Positions 2 to 63,672 of a stretch of 64,000 nucleotides of DNA are shown in pieces. Within the stretch, counting starts at the first letter, position 1; each line of letters opens with the position of its first letter. The stretch is taken from NCBI GenBank assembly GCA_964036195.1, contig OZ038459.1, positions 2,539,206 to 2,603,205 of the forward strand, given 5' to 3'. Under the pieces are notes generated by a model that did not search any database, was not told where the DNA came from, and worked only from the letters and a program-made list of their open reading frames with translations. The position numbers and the translations under genes were made by a program. The DNA comes from Sphaerolaimus hirsutus (Eukaryota; Nematoda; Chromadorea; Monhysterida; Sphaerolaimidae).

Positions 2-2857
2 TTCAAGAACCTCTTGGCACAGCAAGAAGGGCTATTCAGTATGAACGAGTATGACATTGGCGAAACACACGTCACAGAGCACAAAATCGAGTTAGTGCCA
101 GGCGCAGAACCAATAAAATGCGCAGCCAGATTTGAAACCCCTCCAAAAAGAGCATTTGTGTGGCGGACTGTGGAAGAAATGCTCAAGAAGAAGCTAATAA
201 TCCCGTCATCATCGCCATGGGCATTTCCGCTAGTCATAGTCCCGAAAGGCAAAACGGACTACCGCTTATGCTTAGACTTTCGCAAATTGAATGACATCAC
301 AGTTCGGGATGCGTACCCACTCCCCAGAATCACCGACATGTTCCAGCAGATGAGCGGACGATTGGTGTTTTCAACAATGGACGCCAGTTTTGGCTACTAC
401 AATGTCACCATCTCAGACCCAGCCACACGAGACATGGTGTCATTCGTGTGCAGCAGGGGCCAATACAGCTATACGTGAATGCCCCTGGGATTAAAAAATG
501 CCGGGGCGAGTTTCCAGAGGCTCATGGACTGCGTGCTGACAGGACTGAACCAGGAGCCCGAACGCCCAGCATTTTTCGCCTACATCGATGATTGCTTGGT
601 GGCTAGCAATAGCCCAGAAGAGCATTTGCAGCACTTGGTGCAACTTTTCAACAGGCTCAAGTGGGCGGGAATACAACTGAAACCAGAAAAATGCCATTTC
701 TTTTGTGCACAAGTCAAGTTCCTCGGATTCGAGTTGAGCAGGAATGGCATCGCCCCAAAAAGGAGCAACATCGCAGCAATTCTCGAAATGCCCACCCCCA
801 CCACAAAACAGGACATAAAAACTTTCCTGGGAAAAGCAGGTTATTTCAGCCAGCACATCCCCGGTTTCCACCGATTAGCGGCACCGCTAAACGAAATGGC
901 CAAAGGAAAGTACAGGGTGAATGGCAACGACCCAATCCCCCCACATGCGGAATGGACGGCAGACGCGAGAAACGCGTATGAAGTGCTCAAACTAAAGCTG
1001 AGCTCGGCACCAGTTCTGGCGCACCCAGACCGCACAAAAGAATATTACTTGTACACAGATGCATGCGACCTGGGATTGGGCGCGGTGTTGATGCAGAAAA
1101 GCGCAACCGACCCAAATCGCTTACGACCCGTCTCGTTCGTGTCCAAAAAACTCCCCACATCCCACAAAAACTGGTCCACCATCGAGAAAGAGGCTCTAGC
1201 CTGCACATGGGCGCTGGACCGACTGGGCGACTACATCAATGGACAAAAAGTCATCCTGCGAACCGATCATAAAGCGCTCGTGAATGCACTCATCAAACCA
1301 GCGCATGGAAAAATCGAGCGGTGGACACACCGATGGGCAATGCGACTATCATTGAAAGACCTGACAATCGAATACTGCCCCGGCGAACAAAATGTCATCG
1401 CAGACGCACTGAGCCGAAATCCCATCGAGGACCCAGATACAATGGCATTCCAACGAGCCAGCGAAATCATCAGACTCCCGTTAGACAAATTATGCCCCCA
1501 CATGGCTCGTTGCACACAGGCCCAAATCAGCTGGCAACAGGAACAAATCAAAGACCCAGAGGGCAGCAAAATCAAACAGAAGCTCCCTGAAGGCACAATG
1601 GGACAAGCCCAATACAGAGTGATAGACAATGTGATCCAGTACAGAGGACCACAAGGTTTCCAACCATGGGCACCCACGCACATGCGAGAAGGACTATTAC
1701 AAAGAGCTCATGCGGGAAATTTGGGCGCCCACGGAGGTGCGGAACGAACCACACAACAAATAGGCAGGGTAGCGGCGTGGCCACGAATGCGGCAAGATGC
1801 AGCAGAATTTGTCAAAAAGTGCCATATTTGCAAAGTGTCCAAAGACGGCCAGCGGAAAGGTTTCAGCCCATTATTCCCCGTCAACCCAGGCACCCGACCA
1901 TGGCAAAAAATTGCCGCAGACACGACCCCCATGCCAGAGTTCAAGGGCCACAAGTACTTGCTAGTCGCAGTAGACTATCTGACACGAGCAGTAGCCCTAG
2001 CACCACTACGACAATTGACTGGAACCGCAGTGACAGCGGCGCTGGAGAAATACGTCATCCACCGATTTGGTCCACCGACGGAATTGATCACCGACAATGG
2101 CACAGAATTCATCAACAAAGACGTGGCACAATTAGCACACAAATGGGGAATAAAGTTGAGGACAACGACCCCATATCATTCCCAATCCAACGGATTAGCA
2201 GAACGAGCTATCCGCAGCGTAGAACAATTGACCCGTCAATGGGCGCAGAATAACGCAAATTCACGCAATTGGCCAGAGGTGCTGCCAGAAATCGCATTGC
2301 GCATGAATGTAGCGTACAATCGCGACGTTGCCCACGCCCCATTCGAGTTGTTATTCGGGTACATGCCACCGTTGCTAGCAGGAACAAGCGGCGACCAGCA
2401 CGTAACAACCGACAGCGGAGACGAAACCCCCCCCAGCGCCAATACTAGACTACAAAAGACGTTAAGATCCCTGGCGACGAAAGTACCCAAGGGGGCAGAG
2501 CAGCCAGGGCACCTACAAACATTATGGCAACAAGCGAAAATGCAATTGAAAAGTGCGCAAGAACGATATAAACGAGCGCACGACAAAAAAGCGGGGAATG
2601 AAATACGAGTAGGAGACACTGTGTACATGGAAACGCGATGGGGCATGGCTGTCGAGCAGAAAATACGCCCCCTTCGCACCGGCCCGTATGAAGTTGTGGG
2701 GATGGATAAGTCAATTGCCCTCGTGGATACAGGGGAATATATCCAAAGAGCCCCTGTGAATACACTCACACTTGCAAATGAAATTGGAATAAAAAAGAAA
2801 AATCGCGAAAGAACACAAAGCCCCACCCCCCACACCCAATCCATCAACTGCAGCAAA
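2..2857 (+). pseudogene. Ty3/gypsy pol (RT, RNase H, integrase), 5' truncated by window, one internal stop
   Basis: One reading frame runs from position 2 and is broken only by TGA at 476-478, between the end of RT motif 4 and the conserved MPLGLKNA segment. Family members usually have arginine or another residue here, so CGA to TGA by CpG decay is likely (inference). The RT catalytic YIDD is at 581-592. RNase H follows, with the YTDACDLGLGA and TDHKAL segments at about 1050-1275 and IADALSR near 1400. The integrase has a His/Cys zinc module at about 1708-1845, then catalytic Asp (1919-1921), Asp (2093-2095) and Glu (2201-2203). The last two are 35 residues apart, as expected for DD35E. A GPY motif is at 2681-2689. 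The frame stays open to 4258, but everything after about 2790 is outside the known pol domains. Confidence 0.92.
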
Positions 2858-4409
2858 ATGGCGTCCCGCAGCGACAGCACGGAGCAGTACGGCGACAACC
2901 GCCGCCGCGGCCGCGGCCGCGGGCGTCAATCCGCCGGGGCACAGAACCGCAGCCGAGTACGACCACGCCCGGCATACCCGTTGGCACCGGCACCGAGCCC
3001 GAAACGAGCGCACACGAATTGGGTCAGTTCCATAAGACATTCGAGCGGAACTGCACCAGCCCCAAACCCTACCACAACCCCAACCCCAACCCCGTTGACG
3101 CAGGCACCACCGGCCGAGCCGCACGCGACGCAGCAGGCGGCGCTCGTGCACACAGTGGCAAAGGCAAACGGGTCGACCCGCCCCGCTGGCGGCCACACGC
3201 CGATCCCGTTGAACGCGATCCGAGTGCAGCCGGCCCCACAGCTAGAAGGTGAGGCCACCTGTCCACCAGTTTGTTTGGGTTCCGAAACCCAGCGTGTTTT
3301 GTTTGGTTTGGCAGACTGCCAAAAGTTACGATGGGATCCTGGCGCAGAATCCCGCGCAACTAGCAATATGGCGACGGCGGCGGGCATTGGTACGAAGGCC
3401 GACCGCATGGCGGCGGCCGCGGAAACCGGCATTGATACACGTGACCCAATTACTTCACGTATTTTCTGGAACAGCGGCATGACGCATTTTTTTTGCGCCG
3501 CAGACACTACGCCGCGGGCAACGGCGACGCGCAAACCCCACCCGGCCCCCACCTCGGCCCCGGCAACCAGTGATGGTAAGCGGGAAGGGGTTCCGAGGGA
3601 GCATTTCCTAATTGCACACCACATAGACGCCCCAAAATATCCCCGGCGCAGGTCGTTTCGAGCTCGCCGAACTGCGCAGCGCCAACCAACTGCTCAAGTC
3701 GGCCATCGACCGCCTCACCGTCTACCCCCAGGAGGCAGCCGACATGCTGCGCTGGAGCCTCGACGCCGAGGGGCGTGTCCGAGGCGAGCGCGACGCGGCA
3801 CGGCACGAATTGGCGAAGAACGAAGAGGCGCTGCGGGCGACAGTGGCGCGTTTGGAGGCAGCGCAGAAAGACGCGGCGGCCATGCGCAAGAGCAGCACGA
3901 AGATGGCCAAGCAGCTGAAGAAGGTGCGCGCACCGGCGCGCAAGGTCACCAACCGCGCGGCGCAGACAGCGGCGCCTCGCCCGACTGCAAACCGCGCGGC
4001 GCAGACGGCGCCGATGCCCTCACCGCCGGACCACGAACACAGCCCCATCCTGAGCGACTGCGACGACGATCTGCTGCCGCAGACCCCCCCGCAGGTGAGA
4101 CGCACTGGTCTGGCGCCATATTTCCTGTTTATGCGGTTTCCCCCCCAACTGTCCCCCCTGGCACCGCAGCCATGCATCAGCCACGCGAAGACCCCACGCC
4201 CCCCCCACCCCGCTCGGAGCCAGTTCCGGCGAAACCCCCCCGCGCCGCCGTGTCGTGACCACCGACCTGCGGTCGTGGCTGCAGGGCAGCAACAAGAAGG
4301 CACGCTAGAGGAACAGACCAGGTTTTTTTCAAAGTTGGGCGGGCGGACGGAAGTAATTTTTTTAGAAAAACGAGTTGGGATTTTTTTTCGAAAGTGGTTT
4401 TATTTATAA
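2858..4409 (+). CDS. Retrotransposon 3' accessory ORF, probably spliced; RGG-rich and coiled-coil protein, function unknown
   Basis: It occupies the position of env in some gypsy elements but has no visible signal peptide or membrane segment. A good-context ATG at 2858 follows a possible acceptor ending at 2852. Residues 1-130 are basic and proline-rich, with an Arg/Gly tract. A donor at 3249 (G|GTGAGG, phase 1) and an acceptor at 3651 (GCAG|GT) join two frames exactly in phase. The second exon, 3652-4094, encodes an Ala/Glu/Lys/Arg heptad-like segment that looks like a coiled coil (about 3660-3940). A second donor at 4095 (CAG|GTGAGA) and an acceptor ending at 4169 define a 75-nt segment that is a multiple of three, so it can be kept or removed without a frame change. 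The frame ends at 4407-4409. Alternative: an unspliced C-terminal extension of pol ending at 4258. I do not recognise the family. Confidence 0.5.
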
Positions 4410-20464: not shown

Positions 20465-20985
20465 CTTAACAGGCATAGTTGTTAAAACGTATTTACTTTT
20501 ACTCACAAAATATGTATACTCGAGTACTGAGTAAATACGTTTATGTGTCCTCTGAAAAAAGTTCTAGTACTCGCTTTTACGTATACATTTTGAAAGTACT
20601 CGAGTACAGAAAACGTATTTTAGATATTTTATATAGACTTTTTAAAGGCATAGAACGGAAAAATGGGAATAAATAGGGTAAAAATAGGGAAAATTGATCT
20701 AAAATGTGTATTTAAACACCATTGTAGCCAAAACGTGCTGAATATAGCAAAACGTTATGAAAATTAGTGATTACGAGTGAAATCTGTGCCGCAATTGTTC
20801 AAAAATACTATCTTTTATGTTTTCTGGACGGAAAAGTACATTTACTCACGTTTACTCATGAGTAAAAGTAAAAAAAATCACTTCACGTTTTCTGTACTCA
20901 GAGGGCGAGTAAAAAATAAATATATAAGTTTTACGTATACTTTGAAAAAAGTTCGGTACTTTTCACAACTCTGTCAACAGGCACC
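20465..20985. mobile_element. ACTCGAGT-type element
   Basis: It starts near ATAGTTGTTAAAACGTATTT and ends near CTTTTCACAACTCTG. The flanks carry TATACTCGAGTACTGAGTAAA and similar ACTCGAGT-centred motifs. The same vocabulary occurs at 25130-25550, 38270-38340 and around 58300/59780-60180. Confidence 0.6.
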
Positions 20986-22819: not shown

Positions 22820-25800
22820 ATGGCAACTAAAGCCAAAGCTGATTTATCCAGCGAAAATAATTCATTAAATGTGAACTCTACGCCAGAAAATTTCACTTGC
22901 ACAGTTTACAAAGTGCCCGACGATTTGACTCAGAATCCAGGGGCTCAAACGCTTTTTTTGGTTTATTATTCGGCCCTGATCACGTTTGCGGTCATTGGTG
23001 AGTTTCATTGGCTGGATGGGTGAAATTTTTAACTGTGAGATTGCGTTTTGTGGTGTTGAAAAGTGAAAACTGGAGATTTGCATATTTACCCCAAATACCC
23101 CCCATCAAATTACCCACCCCCCACTGTGAAAAAGGTCCCAACTCTGACGGCAATAGCACTCCTGTAAAATTCCTAAAATGTCATGTAAAATGTAATGTAA
23201 AGTTAATATGTCATGCAAAGTGTCATGTAAAATGTCATGTCCAGATTAATTTTTTTTTACTAGGACTAAACATTACCCCCCCCCCAAGGTAACGGCTCAG
23301 TGCTGCGCGTGATGTGCCGCTACGAGTCCCTCCGCACCGCACGCAACCTCTTCATAGCCAGGTGCCACTCCCGCACACTGTAAAATACCTTGGAAAATGT
23401 AAAATGCCATGCAAAGTGTCAAGGTCATGTAAAATGCCCTGTAAAAAGGCAAACGTTTGCCATTTACCAGACATTTTCCATGACTATAGACACTTTGCAC
23501 TTCATTTGACATTTTCCAGGGCATTTTACAGGGTCTGAGAGTGGCACCAGTCTGTCCTGCTCCGACATCCTAGTGGTGCTGTTCAGCGGCGTGGTGTCGC
23601 CCGTCTCAATTGTGCACAAACGATGGCTATTTGGGTCCGTTTTGTGCATGGGCATCACTTTTGTGCAGGTGCGGTTTTTTATTTCGATTTTGGGGGTATT
23701 TGGCAAATTTTGTGAGGGGATAAGGATGTAAAAAGTTCCTGGACTACGGTCCCAAAGAACGATTGACTTTTCAATGGCGCTCCACACGCTGGAATGTCAA
23801 CTGGGGTTCAGTGTCAACTCGATTTTAGCTCAATTTTGGTTGCATGACAATTTCAAGTGCACATGCGGCAATGTCGAAACGGAATCAATAGTGCCATGTG
23901 CATTTGAACATGGTTTCGCAACCCATAAACTGAAATCTTGATGAAAACCGGTTGGTGCAGTTGACATCAGTTGACATCCCAATGTCAACTGGTCGAATGT
24001 TTGTCATCAAGATTTTCGTTTATGGGTCGCGAAACCATGTTCAAATGCACATGGTAATATTGATTCCTTTTCGACATTGCCACATATGCACTTGAAAATA
24101 ATCCTGCTACCTATTGGTCTGTCGGGAAAGTTCGTTCCGTTTCAGGATCGTCTCCCATTGGATCGTCCTGGACAATCAGTGGGCATTCAGCCGGCGTATA
24201 TAAGCTGGAATTTATCCAAGCATATATTTTACCTCAAAGTTGATTTTTTAAAGTCGATGCAACGCTAAGTTATCTCTTAATAATGTCCAAAACTCAACGT
24301 GCACGATCCAGCGTTTCCGGGGTTTTCGATTTTTCAATAAATTTAAATGTAAAATCAGTTGGAAACATAAAGTTGGAGATATCCACTTTTATGTAATCAA
24401 TTTCGCGGTAAACTTTTATTTTTGAATTTTACGTTAAGCGATAATTCCAGCTTATGTATTTACACCGACTCAAAACTCACAATCCCTGACCATCCAAGGG
24501 GAGACGGAACGAACTTTCCCGACAGCCCAATAAATTCAGCTAAAATGAGTTGACTCCAAACCAGTTGACATTCCAGCGTTTCCAGCGTGTGGAGCGCCAA
24601 TGACGCACAAGTTCCCATGGCGCCAGAGCAAAACAGCGCAAAAAGCGCCATGGTTTTATCTAGATATTCAAAAAAAAAAACATAGGAAAATGTTTCTTGA
24701 ATTTCATAATTTTTGAATTATTCACAAAAAAAGTGATTTTTCTTTTTCACAAGCTCGCTCAGACCTGGGTGTATTTCGAGGGTGTGGGTAGTACAAGAAA
24801 TACCGTGGTCCCAATCCCTACATCATCAACGAAAACCCGACGAACCCTACGAGCCCTACACGCCCTAACACTCACACTTACCTAATTCCACCTCCCGTAG
24901 GGCGCGTGCATCTACGTGTCCGTGTACTCGCTGACAGCGATTGCGGTCGACCGCTACTGGCTAGTAGCCCACCCCGCTCGCATCACCATACGGCGTAAGG
25001 GCGCCACTGGCGTCATTCTGGCTATCTGGTGCCACTCCCGCACCCTGTAAAGTGCCCTGGAAAAAGTCAAGTGTCATGTTAAGTGTCATGGAAAATGCCC
25101 TGCAAAATGGTGGACGTTCGTTGGACATTTGCAGAGTTGTCAAATGAACAGAACTTTTTTGAAAGTACGTAAATCTAAACGTTAAGTATTTATTTTTTTA
25201 CTCGCCTTTGAGTGCAGAAAACGTAGAGTCATTTTTTTTACTTTTACGCATCATGACATGAGAAAACGTGAGTAAATTACATGAGTAAATCCCCGGTAAA
25301 CATACAATTTCGCCAGAAACCTCACTCAAAATCAGTAACTTTTTGACGCTTAAATTCAATAGTTGATGCGTTTTGCCTATTTTTAAGCTTTTTCTCCCTT
25401 TTCCCCTGAAATACGTGTTCTGTACTCTTGTTACTCGCGCAAAAGTAAACGTATTTACAACGTAATCGTACGGAAACGTAAACGTAGTTACGCAGTACTC
25501 GAGTATACGTATTTATCGAGTAAACATAATCAAATTTTATCAACTATGATCATTTCCCAGGTCATTTTCCCTGCCTTTCTACACTTTCCCCAACACTTGA
25601 CACTTCCCAGGGCACTTTCCAGGGTGCGTGAGTGCCCCCCGGTGCGGCGCCATAGCACTAAGCCTGCCCGCCGCGGGCATGGTGCGCACCAGGCACCTGG
25701 ACCCCTTCTGCGGGGAGTTTTGCATCGAGTTGTGGCCGTCCCCAGCCGTGAAGAAGGCTTATGGGGTTGTGACCATGTTGTGTATGATGCTCGTGCCCTT

Positions 25801-28800
25801 GGCTACTATTGGCACCGCGTATGGATGCTTGTTTCGGCATTTGTCTAAGGTGGGTGGGGTTTTTGCTTTTTGAGGGATTTTGTGGCGCCGTGGCGCTGGC
25901 GCTGGCGCTGGCGTAGTGATGTATTGTCGCTGCACACACTAGTTTACTAACGGTAAACTAAGAATTTGGTCAACTCATTTTTCGGCTTCTGAGCGCATCT
26001 GAGTTTACCGAAATGAACTGTTCGTCAACTACAGTTGACGGAGATTGAAAAAACACATTCCAGGTAAACTCAGATGCACTAGGAAACTAAAAAATGAGTT
26101 TACCATATTCTTAGTTTACCGTTAGTAAACTAGTGTGTGCAGCGGCAATAAGCACCAAAGTTTTGGCGTCAAGCGCCAAAGCGTTGTGGCGCTATTCCCA
26201 TATGTAGCGCCAAGAGCTCATTACCACATGATTTTAGCACTTCCGACTACTTTTTTGGAATACTTTTCGATTAAAAAATTGTTCCGCCAATATATAGCAT
26301 TTTCGAATTTTTCTGCTGAATCTTAATGCATCTTTTTTTGTTCTGCCACTCTGATTAGAACCCTGTGAAATTGATATATTGATTCGTGTATATCTGCATT
26401 TTATACGCATTTTCATCCAAAAATACTCACTATTAAAACGTTGTAAACGTTTTGAACGTTTTTGAATTTTTCCAGGAAAAAAACAACAAATTTTTAAAGT
26501 GTTTTTCAAATTTTTTTATTTATTTCCCATCCACATTTCCCCCAAAAATCCCCCCCCCCTACAGCGAGAAGAAACGAAAAAGCGGCACTCGATGGTGTTG
26601 TGCAGCGACGACAGCAGACTGGTGCGCGAGCGCCGCCGACGGTACAGAACCAACGTCATGCTTATTGGAATGGTCGTGGGCTTTGGCTGTTCGTGGCTGC
26701 CGCAGATCACCTTTTTCTTGTTGAATGTGTGTTGGGGGGGGGGCTGGGGCCAGTTCCAATTTGGGGATACTCGGTGGATTGCGTGCTATGCGTTTTCTGG
26801 AGGATCAGATCAGGGGGCAGTCCCAAGCCCTGTACCTAAAGTGTAAAGTAAAGTGTCAAATGTAAAGTCAAATGCAAAGTAAAGTGTCAATCAAAACAAA
26901 AAAGAAAATATTTTATTACTGAACTTTGCATGACAATTGACAGTTTACTTTGCATTTGACTTTACATTTGACACTTTACTTGACACTTTACAGGGCTTGG
27001 GACTGCCACCTGAAGGATAAGATCAAAATAGTTCTAAAAAAGGAAAAAGATTCAGGAAAAAACATTTGTCGCCTGTACGCGACTCCGCATTTTTCATTTT
27101 TAAATATTTTTTTATCCTGCTTGCGCGAAATTTTTTTAACGTCGCCCTGGATTTTGCCATAGTAATTTATTAACAATATATTTTAAAACCGTTCCCCCCC
27201 CATACCATAACCCAAAAATCACTGGCTCACAATCGCAGGATTACGGTGTTCACTTCACGCACAGCTATCTGATAGCTATGATATGCCACATGATAGCCAT
27301 GACGTCCACTTGCTGGAACCCAATTCTATACGCGTGGCTGAACGAAAACTTCCGCATGGCATTCGTTTCGCTATTGCCGGAATGTGTCGCCACCGGGTTG
27401 TTTGGCATCGGTGAGTGCATATAACTATATACCTATACCGTATATCCTCGAATAAGTCCCCAGGGGAGTGATTTTTGTCTGAGTTTTTGAGGGGAAGTTA
27501 TTCAAGAGTGGGGGTTATTCGAGAGGAGGAGTTTTTTGTTAGAATATTAACTGAAATGCATTTAAAATATACTGTATGAATGCGGGTATGAATATGGTAG
27601 AAACCTAAAACTTGGATTGGAATTTGGGGCCTAGGGATCGGGATTGGAATTGGGCACTTTAGTGTTCAGCAGACGATACCTGGTTGTTACTGTTAAAAAT
27701 GCAAATGGGTGCCAAACTTGTTTGGGCCACTTTTAACGTTAAAATTTTTTATATGCGCAGTGACCCACGCTGTAATTGATTCCGAATCCAAAATCGCCAA
27801 AACACCCAGACAAGGCGTCAGCCGAAGCGATCGTAACTGGCAAGCGACAATGGCACTCGCAGCGCTACGACACTCTAGCCAGGTGCCAATCCCAGACCCT
27901 GTAAAAAGCCCTGTAAAATGTCAACTGTCACGCAAAGTGTCAAAAGTCACGTAAAATGCCCTGCAAAATGGCAACCGAGTTGCCATTTTGCAGGGCATTT
28001 TCCATGACTTTTGACACTTTACACGACACTTGACACTTTACAGGGCTCTTCACAGCCTCTGAGACTACCCCCAGATCACAAATGGCCGCCGACAACACGC
28101 CACCCACGCGGCCGTCCACGCAGCAGCTGCACGTGCAGTCGTGCTGCAACGGGGCGTCGCCGCGCGACAAGTTGGCCGTGGGGAAGTTGGACGTGCTGCG
28201 AACACGCAGCCAGTCGTCCGGCGGCGCGGTCAAGCTGCGCGTAGTGAATGGCGAGAAGGCGGTTGTGGTTGGTGCCGAACTTGGGTTGAGACGGGTCTGC
28301 CGGTACCGGTCGCTCCTGTACCGGGTGAAATTCCGGACCCGGTACCGGAACACACATACCGAAGACAAAAGATAAGGATATACCTATCCTGAAATTTTGC
28401 ATAGAATTTTGGAAATGTAATATTTAAGTTATATACCGTATTTCCTCGAATTCCCCCGGGGGGTTTATTTTTTCAGAGTGACAATTTTGAGAGAAAAACG
28501 TGAAAAATGCAACAATAACCACCATTTATAAGTTTTTACAGCCTTACATAAGGATGTAGTTGGTATAAATGATGTTCTAACAACAGTTACACAGTAAGTG
28601 TTTGAACGTCTGTTATGCATTTCCCGGACCACAAATTCATAGTGCCCATTTTGAGGGGTGGGGGGTATTTCGAGGGGGGTATTTCGATGAAATACGGTAT
28701 GTAATATTTTATTTAATGTAATATTTTCATAGGTAACCAGCCCACACCCTTCCCATTAAATCTCGCAGTTGCAGAAATCTGCCGGCCAGTCGCCTTCAAC

Positions 28801-35426: not shown

Positions 35427-38400
35427 AAACTGCGGCCCCGACATTTGGATGCATGTCCGTTGATCGATGGGAAGGGTAGCCGGAGGCATGGCGCGTCGCC
35501 GGGCAACACACTATACCACATAATAACGCACACTCCGCAGGGCTGGGCCGCTTTTTTCACTGACCCCATCCATTACTGGCTGCTGAATGGAGGCAGGGGT
35601 TGTGAGGCGGTGTTAAGTGTGTTTTTCCAGAGTATATGTATGTAAACACCTTCCCGGTCACGTCCGGCACCCTATTTTTGATCTTACTTGTGACACCCTA
35701 TCTCCAGTTCTGGGGCGCGCCAGAAGCTGAAACTTGGAGGAGGTATTGGTGCGACCCCCCTCTACTTCGCATGAATTTGGGGGGTCGCGGCGACCCCTCT
35801 CAGGGCGGGTCGCCCCAAGTGCATATTTTTTTGGCTTTTATGGTGTCCCACAGCAGGTTCGGCACCTGCTGATTTCTGAGCTGTGGGAGGGGTATAAATC
35901 TAAAATTTTGGGGATGTGTTACCAACACCACTCCCCTACGATACACTATTCAATAATGTGGGATAAATGTGAAAAATTTCTAAAAAATTATTTTATTCTC
36001 TAAAAAACACCACCCTTTTGTTCCTGCAATGATGCCATTGTGATGTCATAAAATTCACCCTAAGTAAATTGTGCAATGCAGGCATTTTAGAGGTATGGTT
36101 CTTTACATAACTTGAAACATCAAACCCTTCCCTTTAAAGTATTGTAAACCATCTTTCAAGTGTCTAATAAAAAAGTTCCAAAAAGTGAATTTTTTGTCAT
36201 CCATCTATTGGGGAGTGGTGTTTTTTTAGAGAATTTTTAGTGAATTTAGTGAATTTTTGAGAAATTTTTCACATTTTTCTCAGATTATTGAATAGTGTAT
36301 AGTAGGGGAGTAGTGTTGGTAACACAACCCCAAAATTTGAGATTTATACCCCTCCCACAGCTCAGAAATCAGCGGGTGCCGGACCTGCTGTGGGACACCA
36401 AAAAAGCCAAAAAAAATTTTGCACTTAGGGAGACCCACCCTGAGAGGGGTCGCCGCGACTCCCCAAATTCATGCGAAGTAGAGGGGGGTTGCGCCAATAT
36501 CTCCCCCAAGTTTCAGCTTCATGGGCGCCGTAGAACTGGGGATAGGATGTAAGAAGTAAAACCAAAAAATGGGTGCCAGACGTGACCGGGAAGGTGTTTA
36601 CTAGGGTGTCAAAAAATTTTTTTTACAAAAACGGAAACAAAAAAAAATTTCAGCGGCCGGAAAACGGAACGGAAAACGGAAAAAAATTTTCACTTGGCGG
36701 AAAACGGAAACGGAAAAAAATTTTCAGCGGCCGGAAAACGGAAAAAGGGCCCAGAAATATGCAAACGGAAAAATGTAATTTGCATGGAAATGAAAAAATT
36801 TGCTGAATTTTTACTGGAAAATGGAAAAAATTTGCTGAAATTTTGCCGCAAGTGGAAAAAATTTGCATAAATTTTGCTGGAAACAGAAAAAATTCACATA
36901 ATTTACAATCTGCATGAATGTTTACCAGTTTGGCTGTAACAGAACACAGAAAGTTGAGCCAGAAAAAGGTAAAATGAGGCAGAAAAACGTAAAATTGAGA
37001 TGGAAAATGGGAAAAAAGGTGGAAAAACTGGAAATTGAGCCGGAAACGGAAAAAAAGACGGAAAAACTACAAATCTGGCTGGAAAATGGAAGATCAGCCG
37101 GAAAAACGGAAACGGAAAATTTAGTGGCTGGAAAACGGAAAAAAAATTTCAGCAGTGGGAAAACGGAACGGAAAACAGAAAAAAATTGCCTGCAGAAAAT
37201 GGAAACGGATAACGGCAAATGGAAATTTGACAGCCTAGTATGTACCTTTGTACTCAAATAAGTCCCGCCACCTGAATAATTCCCCCACCTGAATAATCTC
37301 CAACTTGAATAATTCCCCAACTTGAATAATTCCCCAACTGGAATAATTCCCCCCCCCCCTCCGTTAGACGAGTGAGGAAAAATAATTTACCCACTTGAAT
37401 AATCCCCCTCCACGATGGAGGAAACATAATGCACATATCTTTTAAAGAACAATAAATGACATCAGACCAAGCAAAAGAGTTGTGTCTGGTTTTATAAGTT
37501 TCTAGTTTTTAAAACTGAAAAGTAAAGTAAACTGAAAAGTTGATAAACCCATAAATGAACTTGGCTTTTATACCATCCCGTTGGGGTGGAATGGTGCTAA
37601 TCCCAGACCATGTAAAGTAAAGTAACAAATGTCATGTAAAATGTCATGCAAAGTGTCAACTGTCATGACAAATGTAAAGACAAGTGTAAATTGTCGCGCA
37701 AATTTCAGTATTACATTCTTTCTTCATATTGATTGACATTTCACATGACATTTGACACTTTACTTTACACTTTACAGGATCTGGGACTGCCTCCTGCCCT
37801 GGGGTAACGTGATGGAATTTTCCGTTTTCCATTTTCCGGCTAAATTTTTGGTTTGTCAACCTTTTTTTCGTTTTCCGGTTCAATTGTCTGTTTTTCCAAC
37901 CTTTTTCACTTTCCAGCTCAATTTTTTGTTTTCTGTTTCAGCCAAACTGGTAACCATGCACGCAGGCTCTAAAATTATGAGATTTTTTTCCCATTTTTAG
38001 CAAAATTTCTGCAAATTTTTTTATTTCTGGATAAATTTCTGCAAATTTTTTTCCATTTCCGGCAAAATTTCAGCAATTTTTTTTCCGTTTCCGGCATATA
38101 TTCGGTAAATTTTTCCGTTTCCGTTTCCGTTTTCCGGCCTTTCATTTTACCGTTTTCCATTTTCCGGTAAGTGCAAAAATTTTTCCGTTTCCGTTTTCCG
38201 GCAAGTGCTAAAATTTTTCCGTTTCCGTTTTCCGCCAAAAACTTTTTGTTGACACCCTAGGTGAAATCAATTCGAAATATTTTCTCGGTACTCGAGTACT
38301 TTTCGAGCAGACGTAAATACGTTTTAACAACAATGACCAGTTGATACGCAGAAGACAATAGTCAAGCTACAATCAGACTGACAACTTTCCTGTTTCTACG

Positions 38401-40915: not shown

Positions 40916-41110
40916 GTGGCAGTCCCGAGCCCTGTAAAGTGTAAAGTAAAGTGTCAAATGTAAAGTCAAATGCAAAGTAAACTGTCAATGGTCATGCAAA
41001 GTTCAGTAATAAAATCTTCTCTATTTTGTTTTGATTGACACTTTACTTTGCATTTGACTGTACACTTGACACTTTACTTTACACTTTACAGGGCTTGGGA
41101 CTGCCCCCAG
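40916..41110. mobile_element. Introner-like element
   Basis: Begins GTGGCAGTCCCGAGCCCTGT after CCAG and ends GGGCTTGGGACTGCCCCCAG. The structure matches the copies that form receptor introns. It is followed by 70 nt that are either coding or the C-rich tail of a longer intron ending at 41180. Confidence 0.72.
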
Positions 41111-41180
41111 TTGACCCCCAGCATCTCGTCAAGATCACTTGTCAACTTCTCTCCAACTTTACCACCCCCCCCCCCCGCAG

Positions 41181-41623
41181 CTATTCAAGTGTTCCTGGAT
41201 AGGGTTGCGACTACGACCGACAAACATGGGCCAGGGCAACTCAGCTGGTAGCGAATGGTACCACGAGGCGCTGCCAGGTGCCAGTCCCAGACCCTGTAAA
41301 ATGTCCTGTAAAATGTCCAATGTCATGCAAAGTGTCTAAAGTCATGTAAAATGTCCGGTAAAATGGCAAATGTACATTTTACGTGACTTTAGGCACTTTG
41401 CATTACATTTGGCATTTGGCAGGACATTTTACAGGGTCTGGGACTGCCCCCAGGTGTGGCAGATGCGTACTTTTCACCGAAATGGGACATTCCCGTGGCC
41501 AGTCCCCACGACCAGTTGTCCTGGGCTACGTACTGGCCTATGGATCCAGAGCCTGATGAGGGGGATGATGCGGCTTGTCTTTATAGCGAGTTTTTTTTTT
41601 TTTGGGGGGGGTCTTTTGGGTAA
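41181..41623 (+). CDS. C-type-lectin-like domain, partial, two exons split by an introner
   Basis: Exon 41181-41277 reads from FKCSWIGLRLRP, with the WIGL motif that is the signature of C-type lectin domains, to SEWYHEALPG. Exon 41454 onward reads ADAYFSPKWDIPVASP, LSWATYWPMDPEP and DEGDDAACLYSE, with a Trp/EP/Cys pattern compatible with the second half of the domain. The introner at 41278-41453 is removed in phase 1 to give the Pro-Gly join. The exon then runs into T and G homopolymers with stop TAA at 41621-41623, so the final Cys-containing part of the domain is missing or lies in an exon not found. A possible carbohydrate-binding or scaffold role is inferred only from the motif. A competing frame in the first exon stops at 41249-41251. 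Confidence 0.5.
41278..41453. mobile_element. Introner-like element forming an intron of the lectin-like gene exactly
   Basis: Starts GTGCCAGTCCCAGACCCTGT after CTGCCAG and ends GGGTCTGGGACTGCCCCCAG before GTGTGGC. The two 22-bp tips are near-perfect inverted repeats, making this the cleanest copy in the window. CCAGGTG occurs at both junctions. Confidence 0.87.
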
Positions 41624-47174: not shown

Positions 47175-47374
47175 NNNNNNNNNNNNNNNNNNNNNNNNNN
47201 NNNNNNNNNNNNNNNNNNNNNNNNNNNNNNNNNNNNNNNNNNNNNNNNNNNNNNNNNNNNNNNNNNNNNNNNNNNNNNNNNNNNNNNNNNNNNNNNNNNN
47301 NNNNNNNNNNNNNNNNNNNNNNNNNNNNNNNNNNNNNNNNNNNNNNNNNNNNNNNNNNNNNNNNNNNNNNNNNN
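47175..47374. other. Assembly gap (200 N)
   Basis: Exactly 200 N. Apparent ORFs through it are meaningless. The flanking ATTTTAGAGGTTATGT suggests the gap falls in a repeat. Confidence 0.99.
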
Positions 47375-62881: not shown

Positions 62882-63672
62882 TTAAGCGGCACTTATTTTG
62901 ATGACATCACCATTTTGAACTGAATAGAAGCGGACTTGCCGGAGATCATTTTCCAATTCAATTTCGTTGACATCACTTTCTCCACAGGACAATCTGAAAG
63001 ATGAAACAATGGATTTGATTATATTGCGGCACTGTGGAATTTTTATGCTTTGAAATGCATAGGATAAAAAATAGAGAAATTTAACCCAACTGGGGTCAGT
63101 CCCAAGCCCTGTAAAGTGTAGAGTCAAGTGTCAAATGTAAAGTCAAATGCAAAGTAAAGAACAAAAAAGAAAAGATTTTATTACTGAACTTTGCATGACA
63201 ATTAACGCTTTACTTTGCATTAGACTTTACATTTGACACTTTACTTAACACTTTACAGGGCTTGGGATTGGCACCTGGTGGCAGTCCAGCACCCTGTAAA
63301 GTGTCATGTGAAATGGTCAAACGTGCTAATCAAAATAAAAAGATAAATTCATTACTGGATTACGCATGACACTTGACAAATGTGTATAATATTTTGCATG
63401 CCAGTTGAAACATTACACTTTAAAGGGTGCGGGACCGCCACCCGATCTACCATCTGAGTGCAAAGTGGGGCGATTGGGGGGTCAGGTGGCAAAAGTCAAT
63501 ATCTGCTTGCGATAACCAGAAACCTGGCAGTCTGCCAACCCATCGGCTATCCCACCAAGACACGCACCTCATGGAAACCTGGCTGGGATGCCTCGCCTTG
63601 ACATGCCTAGCCGCCAAGGCGCGCAGCCGCCCCACCGACATCCCGTCGGGTATGCGCACCACTTTGTGCGGC
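62882..63672 (-). CDS. Tbce: Tubulin-folding cofactor E, last two exons (C-terminal ubiquitin-like domain)
   Basis: On the minus strand the last exon, 62882-62993, reads LSCGESDVNEIELENDLR then QVRFYSVQNGDVIKISAA and stop. The EIELENDL...FYSVxNGD block is the signature end of TBCE (family knowledge). The previous exon spans 63568 to about 63672 and reads PHKVVRIPDGMSVGRLRAL, which fits the start of the same ubiquitin-like fold. Donor ATGAG|GTGCGT (phase 2) and acceptor TTTCAG|A join as VSMR-LSCG. TBCE acts in the cytosol in alpha/beta-tubulin heterodimer assembly. The upstream boundary at 63672 (acceptor CGCCAG) is the least certain. The CAP-Gly and leucine-rich-repeat exons must lie beyond the window. 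The last two residues differ from the usual Arg-Trp end. Convergent with the RSRC1-like gene. Confidence 0.85.
63094..63275. mobile_element. Introner-like element in TBCE last intron (copy 1)
   Basis: GGTCAGTCCCAAGCCCTGTAA to CAGGGCTTGGGATTGGCACC. Interior TGTCAAATGTAAAGTCAAATG and its inverse. It lies inside the 574-nt intron 62994-63567, not at its ends. Confidence 0.75.
63278..63443. mobile_element. Introner-like element in TBCE last intron (copy 2)
   Basis: GTGGCAGTCCAGCACCCTGT to AAGGGTGCGGGACCGCCACC, directly next to copy 1. Two element copies in tandem account for most of this intron. Confidence 0.75.

Follow-up and report, generated by a model that had tools for sequence, protein, structure and literature searches.

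A palindromic element with CWG target duplications as an apparent intron, often without a terminal AG, in a receptor gene and other conserved genes of an animal genome

How can a transposon form an intron without killing the gene it enters? This old question, and with it that of intron origin, is raised by a 64,000-nt stretch of contig OZ038459.1 (the window), in which a rhodopsin-type peptide receptor gene carries three introns, 2, 4 and 8, that are copies, now diverged, of a single palindromic element of ~188 bp (Table 1). The first-pass annotation of this DNA took them for introners, i.e. introns made by transposon insertion, with GT and AG both supplied by the tips of the element. The shared origin is borne out: intron 2 aligns with intron 8 (80% over 189 bp, E 7e-43), with either end of intron 4 (E 8e-17 and 2e-11) and with its own reverse complement. 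By its length, inverted repeats and high copy number the element is a miniature inverted-repeat transposable element (MITE), its lack of coding capacity being judged by length alone. The introner reading remains the best one, as the element plus one copy of a CWG target, C(A/T)G, is what interrupts many conserved genes unrelated to one another, and it has the GT orientation at 17 of 17 homology-checked sites. The part played by the tips needs revision: GT does come from the left tip, but the last three bases of the intron are the CWG target-site duplicate, and there is no AG where the target is CTG. The element is very probably an introner that inserts in exons and is spliced out with one CWG, a terminal AG being helpful but not required. 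The element, its duplication, its orientation, the exact restoration of conserved domains and its abundance are directly visible in the DNA.

The receptor belongs to the rhodopsin family (7tm_1, E 8e-48) and, among solved structures, is closest to the prolactin-releasing-peptide (PrRP) and NPY receptors. Among its six top-scoring proteins in the collection searched, four are named, all from nematodes (Aphelenchoides, Gnathostoma, Soboliphyme, Mesorhabditis), and two are unnamed; ticks come next. The host is probably a nematode, judging by this one receptor and a single cuticlin-type domain elsewhere in the genome. A GH6 search made to test for tunicate ancestry had no hits, but its control had none either, and it carries no weight. 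The exon model, when spliced, translates to the protein used in these comparisons, and it gives the coding part eight introns instead of the nine first counted. Taking out 23362-23550 restores the second transmembrane helix, TM2 (FIA/SLSCSD, the slash marking the junction), and taking out 25029-25641 restores TM4 (ILAI/WCGAIALSLP); both junctions are free of gaps in an alignment with eight relatives. It had been claimed that intron 2 and the element coincide to the base. The removal that restores TM2 agrees with this, except that the last three bases are the CAG target-site duplicate and not element. Intron 4, to which an AG end had been ascribed, terminates in GCCCCCCG, and its element holds an extra insertion of roughly 430 bp. 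Intron 8 is an element copy with CAG duplicates, as proposed, but it lies in the protein tail, where the reading frame is not verifiable. The five ordinary introns (1, 3, 5, 6 and 7) all run from GT to AG. Additional copies are found in the window near 16.7, 26.8, 37.6, 40.9, 41.3, 63.1 and 63.3 kb. One of these, absent from the first-pass annotation, is an apparent intron (41278-41453) that lies between two open segments of a second gene; a Pfam search with this gene gave no match, and its coding status is that of an open frame alone.

Which target does the element recognize? Most copies have C(A/T)G on both flanks. An initial test for duplication gave a weak signal in 48 mixed copies (21 with equal ends, against a mean of 14.8 and a maximum of 23 in shuffles) and is superseded by a genome-wide search with exact tips, GTGCCAATCCC ... 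GGGACTGCCCC, with 155-180 bases between them. The ends were CAG/CAG in 178 copies, CTG/CTG in 140, CTG/CAG in 72 and CAG/CTG in 19, and reversed-pattern controls of the same search gave 0 matches each in the whole genome. Matching CWG ends are present in 318 of the 409 exact-tip copies (odds ratio 18, p 6e-34). AG is nevertheless favoured at the ends, as the unequal copies carry their CAG at the 3' side more often than at the 5' side (p 2e-8); in the subfamily of intron 2 this lean is 22 vs 3, by eye, among the copies listed. All subfamily counts were made by eye, with sequences shown for 47 of the 72 CTG/CAG copies, and one of the 19 CAG/CTG copies fits neither subfamily. A search for the tips had been proposed in the first-pass annotation, and one exact 22-nt right tip proves to occur 1,621 times in the genome. 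Two subfamilies with common tips are seen genome-wide, one with CCCAGACCCTGTAAAATG, which occurs in exons, and one with CCCAAGCCCTGTAAAGTG, for which the sample holds no exon case.

A CWG duplication is the mark of the NuwaI group in the PHIS (Harbinger-related) superfamily. Excerpts of the NuwaI description (PMC4482050) report these Harbinger-like transposons from animals, with a 5'-CWG-3' duplication and terminal inverted repeats (TIRs) that usually start with GGG; tips of the present element start with GTG or GGGG. These excerpts do not mention introns, whereas here the element acts as an apparent intron. Harbinger-type DDE matches number 163 in the genome, many of them near-equal in score, and this family, apparently recently amplified, is a possible mobilizer of the element. 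Most of the strong Harbinger-type matches listed have near-equal scores and contain 3-5 in-frame stops inside the match, mainly TGA, as if from a common intron or shift.

Do other copies interrupt coding sequences? Thirty-nine stretches were chosen solely by similarity to intron 2, the element plus one CWG was removed, the flanks were joined and domains were sought. In ten of them the joined flanks hold a domain that spans the junction (Table 1); the names Spt16, UPF2, Kv and SLC26 are our own labels, added to the Pfam family found. At an iGluR-type gene (L039), a receptor (L038) and a short-chain dehydrogenase (L042, sub-threshold) the domain, on the same strand, stops at the junction or starts past it. 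Several of the other stretches seem coding on inspection but do not enter the count. L025 and L038, receptor-like by eye, were rejected as cases: L025 has no Pfam match, and in L038 7tm_1 begins after the junction. A second set, picked by tip, consists of 20 copies from the subfamily of intron 2 with CTG at both ends. These were hand-picked among those of the 140 that were listed, with the subfamily assigned by eye and blind to genes, near-duplicates and several others being skipped; the set serves to show that non-AG introns exist and gives no frequency. A Pfam domain above cut-off spans the junction on the GT strand in five of the 20, and 14 loci have no domain above cut-off. The homology-checked sites thus total 17, i.e. 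the ten chosen by similarity, receptor introns 2 and 4 and the five CTG/CTG copies. Similar sequences therefore serve as apparent introns in unrelated genes, with the likeness extending up to the splice boundaries (17 domains restored), although the domain calls rest on short stretches. A codon-usage classifier of exonic copies was also tried and set aside as too weak, with two of its training frames wrong; its counts (11 of 94 coding-like, ten GT and one GG) are not used.

What argues for removal from the RNA? At 17 of 17 domain-checked sites the GTGCC end lies upstream on the sense strand of the gene (two-sided p 1.5e-5 if strands are sampled evenly), and retention would add a stop in 21 of the 21 cases where the frame is fixed. 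From this orientation and these stops we infer splicing. Open reading frames (ORFs) across the junction are longer on GT..AG-competent strands than on others (40 vs 110 strands, p 1e-4). In the antisense control none of 20 ORFs rose above the Pfam cut-off: ten from CTG/CTG sites had no Pfam match, and ten from the first set gave two matches below cut-off, PF10712 at the HSP70 site (22.5 of 22.8 bits) and an ODR4-like one at the channel site (19.3 of 24.5). The PF10712 match is presumably an antisense artefact of HSP70. Since CTG copies in antisense would give a 3' CAG but a 5' GG, it is GT that matters, and AG seemingly not.

How often is AG missing? The rate rests on the 12 sites not chosen by tip, six of them with a CTG and six with a CAG target; eight end in AG and four do not (HSP70 with CGG, IFT172 with CCG, NHL with CTG and receptor intron 4 with CCG). 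Over all 17 homology-checked sites a terminal AG is lacking in nine, five of which were picked as CTG/CTG, and all nine are in the GT orientation. AG ends are seen in 16 of 24 cases, and GT is retained in all 17. The ordinary introns placed, five in the receptor gene and three in the HSP70 gene (open across five exons recognized by eye), all eight end in AG. The copy in cytochrome b5 reductase still has a TG end, and its arms are 78% alike, against as much as 96% elsewhere; provided that the arms of a new copy are nearly alike, this one is old. Some ordinary 3' splice sites (23281-23288, 26544-26564 and 41160-41180) show C rather than T tracts before AG, which resembles the right tip TGCCCC of the element.

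The predicted fold of the intron 2 transcript has an energy of -98.8 kcal/mol (shuffles -49.0, z -12) and places both splice sites at the base of a single long stem. All 44 copies folded, the 24 named and the 20 CTG/CTG with the interrupted intron 4 excluded, give -85 to -166 kcal/mol, here with no shuffles. How might such an insertion work? A non-autonomous DNA transposon of about 188 bp, palindromic and with a CWG duplication, would insert in exons and leave the transcript as an intron. Its left tip GTGCC would give the 5' splice site behind the target C(A/T)G, its right tip the C-rich tract and the duplicated CWG the final three intron bases, and removal of the element plus one CWG would restore the original reading frame exactly. 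A CAG target would yield GT..AG. A CTG target, whose duplicate supplies no AG, would yield GT..TG, seemingly tolerated and often later mutated to CAG. A terminal AG would be helpful and not required. A hairpin joining both splice sites, and/or a relaxed nematode-like spliceosome, could make non-AG ends usable, and the AG found 19 nt upstream might assist the first splicing step. Most likely, then, these are CWG-targeting introners (NuwaI-like) that leave the transcript as RNA hairpins, with no strict need for AG. A bolder form of the proposal is tentative and in our estimate falls somewhat short of an even chance: a hairpin-borne intron would need GT and not AG, RNA structure would replace 3' splice-site recognition genome-wide, and AG would come later through selection. 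If so, any exonic CWG, CAG or CTG, would safely take up an insertion on the sense strand, because the fold joins the splice sites.

Several points weigh against the introner account as given. The CWG ends are unequal in 91 of the 409 exact-tip copies, and the lean to a 3' CAG is also seen in the second subfamily (25 vs 15 among the copies listed, not significant). The link between the element and a NuwaI-type transposase is conjectural. A domain across the element is lacking in 29 of the 39 similarity-chosen stretches, where not every ORF of each stretch was sent to Pfam. The Pfam input of this first set consisted of GT-strand translations picked by eye from both strands, and the orientation test is not fully blind. 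Splicing is deduced from genomic sequence, and the insertions are read from one genome, not from empty sites in relatives. Human TG acceptors, in the excerpts of their survey (PMC2374985), are only alternative, in 36 genes, beside an AG within 28 nt and never constitutive, which by analogy would speak against TG as a sole acceptor. Lastly, other AGs are close at hand. Of eight non-AG cases checked, seven (CUT_N being the exception) have an AG 19 nt upstream of the intron end; it is out of frame, so that its use shifts the frame. An in-frame AG is present within 45 nt in seven of the nine non-AG cases: upstream by 9 nt in receptor intron 4 and IFT172 and by 30 nt in b5 reductase and UNC80, and downstream only in HSP70 (18 nt), NHL (15 and 36) and the flippase (12 and 39); it is absent in ABCD and CUT_N. 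Each of these alternatives would add or remove residues.

Is the hairpin needed at all? Non-AG splicing might reflect a generally relaxed spliceosome of this lineage, with the hairpin having no role, and this is a serious possibility, if not quite the one to be expected. C. elegans splices without a strict need for AG and can use mutated non-AG acceptors (Aroian 1993, as cited in excerpts of PMC10946897 and PMC4290612), and the best named relatives of the receptor are nematode proteins. The uniform AG ends of the eight ordinary introns point the other way, but the number is too small to decide.

It is unlikely that only the AG-ending copies are real introns and that the others are recent unspliced insertions, i.e. 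null alleles, heterozygous copies or pseudogenes. The GT..TG ends of the CTG/CTG copies fit such a view, being not constitutive in human genes (PMC2374985, in excerpt). However, the 12 sites not chosen by tip are evenly split between CTG and CAG, and a dead insertion would be free in orientation, whereas the non-AG cases, nine of nine, lie in the GT orientation. They sit in HSP70, IFT172, cytochrome b5 reductase and ABCD; the b5 reductase copy is old, if arms begin nearly alike, and the HSP70 gene is open in its five exons.

Could the non-AG copies be spliced at a different AG, e.g. in the TTACAG 19 nt upstream or in the next exon? The frequency of nearby AGs noted above is in its favour, but we regard it as improbable. 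A 19-nt remainder causes a frame shift, ABCD and CUT_N have no in-frame AG to offer within 45 nt, the HSP70 alternative would delete six residues from an ungapped match, and that of intron 4 would lose a TM4 tryptophan present in seven of eight relatives. Insertion into pre-existing introns is very improbable: copies do occur in ordinary introns (26814-27009 in intron 6), but the exonic cases have only the element plus one CWG between the domain halves, and the CWG target is carried by the exon. Ciliate internal eliminated sequences (IESs) are cut out of DNA, and a comparable excision in expressing tissue is hardly credible here, for although it equally predicts exact loss of the element plus one short duplicate, orientation would then be irrelevant, yet it is one way in 17 of 17, and the sequenced DNA holds the copies.

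How does the introner reading compare with known systems? According to the excerpts of an introner survey (PMC9860276), many introners have TIRs and a target-site duplication, either splice site can come from element or duplication, the frame is usually restored, and hosts are found in just two animal groups, copepods being named. The present case is alike in its many similar introns in unrelated genes, TIRs with a duplication, one splice site from each and a restored frame. It is unlike in the CWG duplication, the palindrome, the absence of AG from four of 12 homology-checked exonic copies and the other animal host. Nonconventional introns of euglenids and diplonemids have paired ends, a stable structure, non-canonical borders and a proposed MITE origin (excerpts of PMC4770533 and PMC12621601). 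Ends joined by a stable RNA structure, predicted here, are common to both, but the present element retains the 5' GT and favours AG, its host is an animal and a spliceosomal route is likely; with GT in 17 of 17 and AG in 16 of 24, the element is not classed with them. The human TG acceptors (PMC2374985, in excerpt) share the TG with an AG nearby, here at 19 nt in seven of eight, but there they are alternative only, whereas here TG is apparently a productive site of a multicopy transposon. In tunicates 95% of introns depart from GT-AG, with introners one possible source (excerpts of PMC13326754). This is likewise a large-scale departure in animals with introners as a possible source; here, however, only transposon-made introns were seen to depart, the ordinary ones sampled being eight in number. 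The excerpts of a nematode intron survey (PMC9169325) mention introners only in general terms, and no report of nematode introners was found in the literature searched, which did not cover a 2025 introner survey.

A transposon that serves as a ready-made intron, often without AG, would be an unexpected route to new introns in animals and would add an animal group, probably the nematodes, to the hosts of introners. One genome offers matched natural experiments, with the same element at CAG (GT..AG) and at CTG (GT..TG) in hundreds of exact-tip copies, some of them in conserved genes. The AG requirement, the role of the hairpin and the speed of selective splice-site repair become directly testable. 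In this genome, gene prediction that insists on GT-AG would overlook conserved genes or cut them short.

Table 1. Receptor gene and element copies in the window, and loci elsewhere in the genome where a domain meets the element junction
Feature	Position in window, or locus	Strand	Remarks
Rhodopsin-type peptide receptor gene	22820..28300	+	end uncertain
Receptor exons 1-4	22820-22997, 23289-23361, 23551-23668, 24901-25028	+	
Receptor exons 5-8, then further exon	25642-25849, 26565-26726, 27239-27410, 27761-27882, from 28075	+	
Element copy, receptor intron 2 minus last 3 bases	23362..23547	+	starts GTGCCACTCCC, ends GAGTGGCAC; removal restores TM2
5' duplicate CAG, intron 2 copy	23359..23361	+	kept in exon
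3' duplicate CAG, intron 2 copy	23548..23550	+	final 3 bases of intron 2
Element copy, receptor intron 4	25029..25638	+	split internally by further insertion (about 25120-25550); TM4 restored by removing 25029-25641
5' duplicate CTG, intron 4 copy	25026..25028	+	
3' duplicate, intron 4 copy	25639..25641	+	now CCG; no terminal AG
Element copy, receptor intron 8	27883..28071	+	protein tail; putative reading frame
Duplicates of intron 8 copy	5' CAG 27880-27882; 3' CAG 28072..28074	+	
Element copy, apparent intron (41278-41453) of second gene	41278..41450	+	...EWYHEALP/GVADAYFSPKW...; GT..CAG ends
Duplicates of second-gene copy	5' CAG 41275-41277; 3' CAG 41451..41453	+	
Second-subfamily copy in ordinary receptor intron 6	26814..27009	+	CAG/CTG ends
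Element copy	40916..41107	+	CAG/CAG ends; no sign of exon
Element copy	37594..37793	+	ATG/CTG ends
Element copy	63093..63274	+	CTG/CTG ends
Element copy	63278..63441	+	CTG/CCG ends; adjoins 63093..63274 copy
HSP70	L037		Pfam 2.6e-28; ungapped vs heat shock 70 kDa protein 1A, 1.5e-29 (PDB)
IFT172	L013		1.1e-16, residues 10-69 on 1-60 of chain 8bd7_S
NHL repeats	L047		solved structures (PDB) only, best single repeat 0.007; no Pfam match
Sulfate_transp	L041		Pfam
Ion_trans channel	L043		Pfam
MIF4G	L031		Pfam
Vinculin-like	L046		27.5 bits, below 38.1 cut-off
Peptidase_M24, probably Spt16	L023		Pfam
Innexin	L036		domain across junction
DOP1	L024		domain across junction
Cytochrome b5 reductase (CTG/CTG set)	L061		Pfam; ungapped vs solved structure, 5e-42
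ABCD (ABCD1) (CTG/CTG set)	L057		Pfam; ungapped vs solved structure, 3.5e-20
Phospholipid flippase (CTG/CTG set)	L067		Pfam; weaker vs solved structures, 2e-7
UNC80 (CTG/CTG set)	L055		Pfam
CUT_N, cuticlin-type (CTG/CTG set)	L068		Pfam
Wnt (CTG/CTG set)	L060		domain starts one residue before junction; outside the 17

Other repeats are also present in and around the receptor gene. The sequence inserted at 25120-25550 within the intron 4 element is itself a repeat, and parts of intron 4 are found again at 20474-20550 and 20840-20973. Ordinary intron 3 carries another foldback element at 23771-24603, with 97-nt arms (91%) nested in outer arms of 24-32 nt, and ordinary intron 5 carries one at 25922-26150 that is an inverted repeat of 88-nt arms (90%). 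Elsewhere in the window, a run of 200 N at 47175-47374 is probably a scaffold gap, and a retrotransposon frame at 479-4258, with reverse transcriptase, RNase H and integrase domains, is probably Gypsy-like, its reverse transcriptase match spanning only the end of the profile.

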